This document shows, one piece after another, positions 7,665-8,190 of a stretch of 64,000 bases of DNA (the first letter of the stretch is position 1; each line of letters starts with the position of its first letter). The notes under the pieces are model-generated. The model had not been told where the DNA came from. It saw only the letters and a program-made list of their open reading frames with translations, and ran no database searches. Origin of the DNA: Terriglobia bacterium. GTDB lineage: Bacteria; Acidobacteriota; Terriglobia; Bryobacterales; Bryobacteraceae. The stretch lies in NCBI GenBank assembly GCA_020073145.1, contig JAIQFS010000002.1, forward strand, positions 62,001 through 126,000. Direction: 5' to 3'. The translations under genes and the position numbers were made by a program.

Positions 7665-7693
7665 TTGACAGGTTTTCCGCCTCGTGAGAGGAT
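7665..7693 (+). promoter_or_regulatory. promoter with consensus -35 upstream of a structured transcript
   Basis: TTGACA (7665-7670) is a perfect sigma-70 -35 box. Seventeen bases later GAGGAT (7688-7693) is a weak -10 with the conserved second A and final AT. Transcription would begin near 7700, before the repeat- and hairpin-rich stretch described next. The -10 is poor, so this call is moderate. Confidence 0.45.
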
Positions 7694-7728
7694 GAAAGTA
7701 TCACTGGGAAAGGAGGTGGTCCAGGAAG

Positions 7729-7770
7729 ATGGATAGTCATAAAAGACCGCGGGAGGTGGCCGACTGTTAA
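7729..7770 (+). CDS. possible 13-residue peptide, MDSHKRPREVADC
   Basis: An ATG at 7729 opens 13 codons ending in Cys then TAA (7768-7770). It lies behind AAAGGAGGTGGTCC (7709-7722), which can pair with about 14 bases of the 16S rRNA 3' end with one G-U wobble. The stop codon falls in the loop of hairpin A. The GGAGG core is 12 bases from the ATG, longer than ideal, though a second AGGA lies closer. I know no family for the peptide. It could be a leader peptide, a small Cys-ending product, or chance. Confidence 0.35.
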   Translation: MDSHKRPREVADC

Positions 7771-7877
7771 AGTCGAGCCTCTCATGCTGAGATCCCGTCT
7801 CCAGTATTCGGGATCGCGTTCCTGTGGACCGGCTGCCTCACGCGTCAGTTAGGCCTTCAGGTTTCTAAAGGCACCAG

Positions 7878-7910
7878 CCCCCGTGGCCCGTTTCGGACCA
7901 CGGGGGTTTT
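7878..7910 (+). terminator. intrinsic terminator ahead of rpmE
   Basis: CCCCCGTGG (7878-7886) pairs perfectly with CCACGGGGG (7898-7906) across an 11-base loop and is followed by TTTT. It ends the structured transcript 44 bases before rpmE. A -10-like TATACT (7918-7923) lies just after it, but I see no good -35 for that element, so rpmE may also depend on read-through. Confidence 0.82.
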
Positions 7911-7953
7911 CATTTGCTATACTGAGTTTCTCGAAAGGATTCCCCGTACCATC

Positions 7954-8190
7954 ATGAAGGCCGGTATTCATCCCGCGTACAACGAAATCAAGGTCATCTG
8001 CGCCTGCGGACATGTCATCCCAACGCGATCCACCCACAAAGGCGACATCCGCGTGGAAATCTGCTCCTCCTGCCACCCCTTCTTTACCGGCAAGCAGAAG
8101 TTGATCGACACCGCGGGCCGTGTGGAGAAATTCGAAAAGAAGTACAAGGTCTCCCGCGCCGCCAAGAAGACGCCGCAGCCCGTTGCCTGA
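7954..8190 (+). CDS. rpmE: 50S ribosomal protein L31, zinc-binding type
   Basis: The 78-residue product matches bacterial L31: [16 protein letters not shown] at the start, then [26 protein letters not shown]. All four zinc ligands are present (Cys16, Cys18, Cys37, Cys40), so this is the C-plus form usually replaced by a Cys-less paralogue under zinc limitation. L31 bridges the ribosomal subunits. The basic tail ([14 protein letters not shown]) is slightly longer than in E. coli. TATACT at 7918-7923 is the likely -10. Confidence 0.97.

Follow-up and report, generated by a model that had tools for sequence, protein, structure and literature searches.

What does the short transcription unit upstream of rpmE, the gene for ribosomal protein L31, do in the 64-kb stretch of acidobacterial DNA analysed here (the window)? 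The initial annotation described positions 7665-7910 as a self-contained transcription unit with a consensus −35 element, a junction of hairpins, a 13-codon open reading frame (ORF) and a terminator, and suggested either a peptide-sensing leader for L31 or a free small RNA. We examined the unit and its relatives for promoter, terminator, neighbouring genes, pairing with 16S rRNA, coding potential and secondary structure. The features are listed in Table 1.

Table 1. Features of the RNA gene and its surroundings; positions are those of the window.
Feature	Position	Strand	Details and basis
Promoter	7665..7693	+	−35 TTGACA 7665-7670, 17-nt spacer, −10-like GAGGAT 7688-7693
Predicted transcription start	~7698-7700	+	
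Candidate pseudoknot, 5′ strand	7703..7707	+	partner loop 7801-7805
Extended Shine-Dalgarno (SD) block	7707..7724	+	can pair 18/18 (two G.U) with the 16S rRNA 3′ tail CUGGAUCACCUCCUUUCU
Mini-ORF	7729..7770	+	MDSHKRPREVADC; stop TAA 7768-7770; conservation of frame and stop
Helix P1, 5′ strand	7748..7760	+	inside the ORF; covariation
GAGGUG (codons E-V)	7753..7758	+	first base 15 nt from the stop; second SD-like element, putative pairing with 16S rRNA
Hairpin P2	7761..7775	+	stop codon in loop; moderate support
Hairpin P3	7791..7815	+	stem 7791-7797/7809-7815; also in the minimum-energy fold
Helix P1, 3′ strand	7832..7844	+	alternative partner is the SD site (7713-7717 with 7835-7839)
Intrinsic terminator	7876..7910	+	stem 7876-7890/7894-7908; folding and counts in relatives
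Extended −10 TGCTATACT	7915..7923	+	just past the terminator, outside the RNA gene; probable rpmE promoter
rpmE (L31)	7954..8190	+	neighbour; probably a separate transcription unit

The interval proved to be a real and conserved RNA gene. A DNA search found the RNA in 32 of 61 relatives, with the window's own genome counted. A covariance model (R1), built from 31 sequences and partly from genomes that were later searched, gave matches in 143 of 150 genomes sampled from the order, and 141 of these had just one match. The annotated −35 element is present, and its TTGAC was kept in all 56 distinct relatives, always 34-37 nt upstream of the RNA block. The intrinsic terminator was likewise borne out by folding and by comparison. 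A crude detector saw it in 42 of the 56 relatives, as against 8 control stretches taken 500 nt further on (only at loci long enough), and most of the 14 relatives missed by the detector have a terminator by eye. The predicted transcript (7698-7912) has a folding energy of −91.2 kcal/mol (z = −3.3), and none of 200 shuffles was as stable.

Its location suggests that the RNA might be a leader of rpmE, i.e. an attenuator in which translation of the 13-codon peptide would decide passage through the terminator into rpmE. The start of rpmE lay at most 420 nt downstream on the same strand in 37 of the 55 distinct order-level loci (a set that leaves out L023 and L078), and an ORF, alternative folds and a terminator are the usual ingredients of an attenuator. 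However, an extended −10 element (TGnTAnnnT) occurred at most 75 nt before rpmE in 33 of these 37 rpmE-adjacent loci, compared with 6.6% of shuffles, so that rpmE is probably transcribed from its own promoter. The terminator, too, is sequence evidence against co-transcription with rpmE. Moreover, different genes follow the RNA at other loci. The downstream gene is one that we take, from its N-terminus, to be tsaD in L011, L013 and L016, all in genomes from two further families of the order, and at 13 of the 55 loci no downstream gene was supported by the caller, which made one false '-' call (L038, where rpmE is present). Among 133 loci of other groups, a supported downstream ORF was called in 90, and in 57 of these the nearest one was antisense, a count that shadow ORFs in GC-rich DNA may inflate. 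No antiterminator is visible, as helix P1 and its alternative pairing are both clear of the terminator stem. Nor was there an Rfam match at cut-off; known L31 leader families lie before rpmE, and none of them matched the window RNA at its cut-off. We consider an rpmE leader very unlikely, and with it the peptide-sensing leader of the initial annotation. Its other suggestion, a free small RNA, gains support from the varied downstream genes and the probable promoter of rpmE.

The initial account of the unit missed a complement of the 16S rRNA 3′ end at 7707-7724. The duplex of this block with the 16S tail was calculated at −33.7 kcal/mol. A scan of both strands of the window, computed only for stretches with an SD-like tetramer, gave −23.0 kcal/mol for the runner-up. 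An exact copy of the searched tail was absent from the window's own assembly and from those of its four genus-mates, and the tail of the window's own 16S rRNA was for that reason deduced from relatives. Their matches included 16S 3′ ends at 12 places, of which 10 contained CTGGATCACCTCCTTTCT, one differed at the end and one was cut by the contig. The 14-mer AAGGAGGTGRTCCA has a single occurrence in the 6.3-Mb genome. Comparison shows the 5′ end of the RNA to be capable of pairing along the entire 3′ tail of 16S rRNA. A sequence-only model built across phyla (R2) matched, in a complete Streptomyces genome, the RNA itself and six further places over model positions 5-28; the one inspected among the six, L265, is antisense to a 16S 3′ end.

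A complementarity that reaches from the base of helix 45, as we take its position to be, to the 3′ end would also suit an antisense chaperone or decoy for the 16S 3′ end. Such an RNA would act in maturation or quality control of the 30S subunit, and the ORF would only clear it from the ribosome. This function would not require the fixed spacing between GAGGUG and the stop codon that is described below, and we judge it rather unlikely. Constraint from intramolecular pairing may also act on the 5′ block. In other groups, GGUCC in the block was associated with a GGAY partner (Fisher p = 0.01), yet 12 of 16 GAUCC cases were mismatched; a second possible intramolecular partner pairs CACTG with CAGTG.

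The 13-codon ORF is present as annotated, with its stop within a hairpin loop, and the suspicion that it matters was right. Both frame and stop were kept in 56 of 56 distinct order-level sequences, a count that leaves out L023. The distance from ATG to GAG was a multiple of three in every one of them, though its length varied from 21 to 42 nt, and the stop came exactly 15 nt after the first base of the invariant GAGGUG in every one. The stops were TAA in 26, TGA in 24 and TAG in 6 sequences; TGG, expected 2.6 times if the two bases vary independently, did not occur. The initial annotation had stressed that the ORF ends in Cys, which is true of the window but is not conserved, as Ser, Phe, Arg, Gly and Pro also occur. 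The underlying 58 order-level loci were those at hand and lean to high scorers; L023 (diverged) and L041 (a truncated duplicate) were left out of this set and of alignment A1. L023 (G013:C165), in which the RNA has diverged, has an insertion ahead of GAGGTG and does not contain the standard ORF, so that one order-level relative among those inspected breaks the rule.

The ORF was also recovered when sequence was barely specified. A pattern scan over GTDB genomes in which only AAGGAGGTGRTCC and GAGGTGGC were fixed gave at least 120 loci, with about 7 chance matches expected by our own arithmetic. Among the matches listed, 111 of 114 distinct loci had the ORF, defined as a start codon at most 15 nt after the block, a frame open through GAG and a stop 3-6 codons on, compared with 1 and 1 in the other two frames; the stop was at the fifth codon in 109 of these 114. 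The exceptions were L113 (other frame), L127 (inside a coding sequence) and L158 (without a usual start). The first usable start of the 111 ORFs, which fall within L109-L228 among the matches listed, was UUG in 44, AUG in 42, GUG in 15 and CUG in 10, and a very strong SD could permit weak start codons. Near the N-termini, Ser-His or His-Ser was seen by eye repeatedly in many groups (MDSHKR, MYSHRT, MSSYHS, VSHC). At L113 (5824-5890, a Planctomycetota MAG), the 16S-complement block and GAGGTGGC are accompanied by an ORF in another frame, MADGCKRDRRWRST, with its stop just past GAGGTGGC; here the position of the stop may be more important than the residues.

With the spacing left free, all 38 distinct ORFs that were found had GAGGUG exactly 15 nt upstream of the stop, although the finder demanded E-V near the end. 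It missed five of 65 loci, three of which (L089, L299, L308) carry the RNA by eye, while L085 and L107 look like chance matches. The predicted duplex of GAGGUG with the 16S tail averages −12 kcal/mol. Codon choice points in the same direction as the frame. At 100 loci outside the window's order, codon −2 was Thr in 81, with all four third bases in use (entropies 0.71, 0.71 and 1.94 bits), and codon −5 was Ser via TCN in 19 and via AGY in 15. Comparison shows the short ORF to be under coding selection.

These results bear on two further explanations. An ordinary non-coding sRNA that acts by base pairing, with the ORF as a by-product of RNA structure, would agree with the strong structure and with the typing by Rfam of the related family RF02471 as an sRNA ('Actinobacteria sRNA'). 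It is contradicted by the frame tests (56/56 and 111/114) and by codon usage, which makes it highly improbable. Alternatively, the peptide itself could be the product, a micropeptide serving as a signal or protein binder. The signs of selection on amino acids at the codon level, with Thr of free third base and Ser from two codon families, speak for such a peptide. However, its N-terminal half is variable both in length (21-42 nt from ATG to GAG) and in sequence, its strictest residues, E-V, are equally strict as RNA (GAG GTG in 38/38), and an export signal was not seen by eye in the ORFs. A micropeptide is in our view unlikely.

The end of the ORF is also part of a helix. Covariation was counted over 56 distinct sequences in an alignment (A3) fitted to the R1 structure, which contains P1, so that the counts lean towards that structure: in P1 (7748-7760/7832-7844), 91% of cells were paired and 5 of its 13 pairs had changed on both sides; the figures were 67% and 3 of 5 for P2 and 89% and 6 of 7 for P3. 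Compensatory changes in relatives, which the initial annotation had set as a test, were found in P1 and P3, and the hairpin at 7791-7815 (P3) is confirmed. The whole structure had 100 cells with changes on both sides, compared with 28 in shuffles (0/500 reached this number), and six slid versions were far worse. Outside the order, GGUGGCnnn at the ORF end had a best downstream partner scoring 7.5 of 9 or better in 62 of 101 loci, as against 352 of 3030 mononucleotide shuffles. This partner mostly ends in CACC or UACC directly before a GC-rich stretch, and the variable part of P1 changes together on both strands (UGC/GCA, UAC/GUA, UGU/ACA, CAG/CUG, UGG/CCA). Comparison shows that the last codons of the ORF covary with the 3′ strand.

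The 10-bp helix that had been placed at the base of the junction (7718-7727 with 7819-7830) does occur in the minimum-energy fold of the window, but it is without covariation support and was rejected as a conserved core. Its upper six pairs were kept in 312 of 348 cells with no change on both sides, and pair 7719/7829 was broken in 18 of 58 loci. Its lower four pairs were kept in 113 of 232 cells, and pair 7727/7819 was A-U in 21, G-C in 7 and mismatched in 22. This helix may belong to an alternative state. The candidate pseudoknot (7703-7707/7801-7805) has four almost invariant pairs in the 58 loci, and its pair 7707/7801 was A-U in 39, G-C in 10 and unpaired in 9 of the 58. The minimum-energy fold of the window pairs the 7703-7707 strand with 7845-7849, not with the pseudoknot loop.

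Folding points to two competing states. The minimum-energy fold of the window (−91.2 kcal/mol) is without P1, and enforcing P1 gave −86.3 kcal/mol, i.e. a cost of 4.9 kcal/mol. In the former, the SD core (7713-7717) is paired with 7835-7839, the middle of the P1 3′ strand. Among the core sequences of the 56 relatives, P1 was part of the minimum-energy fold (scored as present with at least 8 P1 pairs) in 30; in 17 the 3′ strand covered the SD instead, and 9 had neither. The SD (GGAGGUGG) and the ORF end (GAGGUGGC) are near copies, and hence one 3′ strand can cover either. Two competing partners of the 3′ strand suggest a switch, in which covering of the SD, seen in folding only, would be the alternative to P1.

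Is this RNA known elsewhere? At curated Rfam cut-offs, no family was found for the window RNA, the sole match in the window being a tRNA elsewhere, or among the loci of 10 relatives. The remark that the unit fits none of the common bacterial RNAs is correct at these cut-offs, but the RNA has a distant relative in RF02471 (Ms_IGR-5). The window scored 19.9 bits against this family (E 0.014 in 381 nt), where the gathering cut-off is 45. Similar scores arise at unrelated sites in the same genomes (in G001, 23.5 bits elsewhere versus 20.3 for the RNA), and 19.9 bits alone hence proves nothing. Intermediates bridge this distance: a homologue in G037 scored 29.2 bits, the acidobacterial loci L096 and L086 scored 43.8 and 44.8, and an acidobacterial MAG (L115) and a Zixibacteria MAG (L150) exceeded the cut-off with 47.7 and 55.9. 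Ten of 12 further loci passed the cut-off with 63-176 bits, and two Acidimicrobiia loci failed.

The two RNAs also agree in their parts. Ms_IGR-5 has the same order of parts, an ACAC-type 5′ end, the AAGGAGGUGGUCC block, a short ORF ending E-V-A-x-x-stop, and an ORF end that forms a helix with a strand near the terminator. Its Rfam consensus can be read as UUG AUU GAU UUA UGG ACA UGU GAG GUG GCU GCC CGC UAG. In the window, the 5′ block and the ORF-end GAGGUGGC are in register, and covariation indicates that the end of the ORF forms the helix with a strand upstream of the terminator, although the minimum-energy fold prefers another partner. Conversely, the P1 3′ strand of the window RNA lies earlier, an extra hairpin precedes the terminator and the start is AUG. 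Via the intermediates, the window RNA can be linked to Ms_IGR-5 and looks like its distant relative in Acidobacteriota.

For Ms_IGR-5, published lists give validation by RNA-seq in S. lividans (PMC8079986) and an sRNA unit in S. avermitilis (PMC8780764); it is among the mycobacterial sRNAs with significant ribosomal reads in two mycobacteria (PMC4974804), and IGR-5 overlaps an sRNA detected in M. smegmatis (PMC10454040). The passages concerned in these four papers describe neither an ORF nor a function for it. A paper on peptides coded by sRNAs (PMC5521070) considered only AUG starts, and the terms 'mycobacteri' and 'Caulobacter' do not occur in it. None of the literature matches listed, all from open-access papers, describes such an RNA.

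A further family shows a partial likeness. In CC2171 (RF01867, a Caulobacter sRNA), the consensus opens with GAAAGGAGGUGAUCCAG, which is perfectly complementary to the 16S tail and runs directly into GUG. In contrast to the window RNA, it is without GAGGUGGC at the ORF end, and the window scored 10.9 bits against it, below the gathering cut-off of 75; the likeness stops short of showing common descent. CC2171-like loci on alphaproteobacterial plasmids (L322, L323 and L324, ~601-700; three of six records) start with a full or nearly full 16S-tail complement and carry unannotated ORFs of 24-26 codons that begin V-S-H-C, and then GC-rich inverted repeats. They are possibly a parallel class of mini-mRNAs.

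R2 was used to survey the distribution of the RNA. It found the window at E 1e-11 in its own genome, the window being one of its 55 sequences and the model, like R1, being built partly from genomes later searched. Under strict filters, full-length matches were obtained in 76 of 294 Acidobacteriota genomes, including 30/30 of family f8 (same class) and 3/3 of the window's family, and in 85 of 198 genomes in the phylum of a Mycobacterium. Two other phyla, each sampled with 198 genomes, had few: 3 in that of a 'Deltaproteobacteria' MAG and 6 in that of a 'Nitrospirae' MAG. Partial matches, judged by model position, were left out of these counts: G181 in Acidobacteriota, where G164 (locus L107) appears to be a chance match; short 16S-like matches in 21 genomes, and G842 (2-40), in the Mycobacterium phylum; five 16S-like matches and G515 (7-38) in the 'Deltaproteobacteria' phylum; and G1021 (3-44) in the 'Nitrospirae' phylum. 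The pattern matches listed (titles for 80 of at least 120) include MAGs of Zixibacteria, Nitrospirae, Nitrospinae and Spirochaetia, and also of Krumholzibacteriia, Sumerlaeota and Planctomycetota. Contamination of MAGs could lie behind single cases of this spread. A phage origin was rejected: five pattern matches were in viral contigs, all of them inside long reading frames.

Taken as a whole, the sequence evidence is best explained by a free-standing RNA gene, distantly related to Ms_IGR-5, that is not purely non-coding but a mini-mRNA capturing and retaining ribosomes, and we rate the chances of this explanation as even. Its 5′ block would capture 30S subunits very tightly, and the ribosome would translate some 11-20 codons. 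When the stop codon occupies the A site, GAGGUG would lie 6 nt before the P-site codon. This is ordinary SD spacing, such that the 16S tail could re-pair and the terminating ribosome would be held; we infer this retention at the stop codon from the geometry alone. A ribosome on the ORF would free the P1 3′ strand, which would then cover the SD and keep the next ribosome out. Upon departure of the ribosome, P1 would re-form and the SD would open. The RNA would act in trans, as a device that parks or counts one ribosome at a time and either tunes the pool of free 30S or reports translation capacity, and it would not control the neighbouring gene. In the programmed frameshift site of RF2 (prfB), an internal SD-like sequence also acts on the ribosome at a stop codon. 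The window RNA shares the SD-like element at the stop, whereas a frameshift is neither needed nor seen and the spacing differs; the likeness is an analogy only.

What is new here is the mini-mRNA reading, and the spread over several phyla, of an RNA related to a known family. The ORF of an RNA filed as an actinobacterial sRNA is conserved, and the RNA extends to Acidobacteriota and, in patches, to other phyla. We put forward only tentatively, and as more doubtful than the mini-mRNA itself, that a hitherto unrecognised class of free-standing mini-mRNAs (the window RNA, Ms_IGR-5 and perhaps CC2171) is common to several phyla and serves to bind, meter or park ribosomes. If so, the 5′ end would mirror the whole 16S tail, the length of the ORF would just suffice to place a second SD at the stop, and the strand covering either SD would set the number of ribosomes held and the length of their stay. 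The ribosome reading could be tested in Streptomyces or Mycobacterium smegmatis, where papers report its expression. The parts of the RNA point at the ribosome itself, and the RNA would, if this reading is true, give direct access to the way in which bacteria sense or buffer their free ribosomes.
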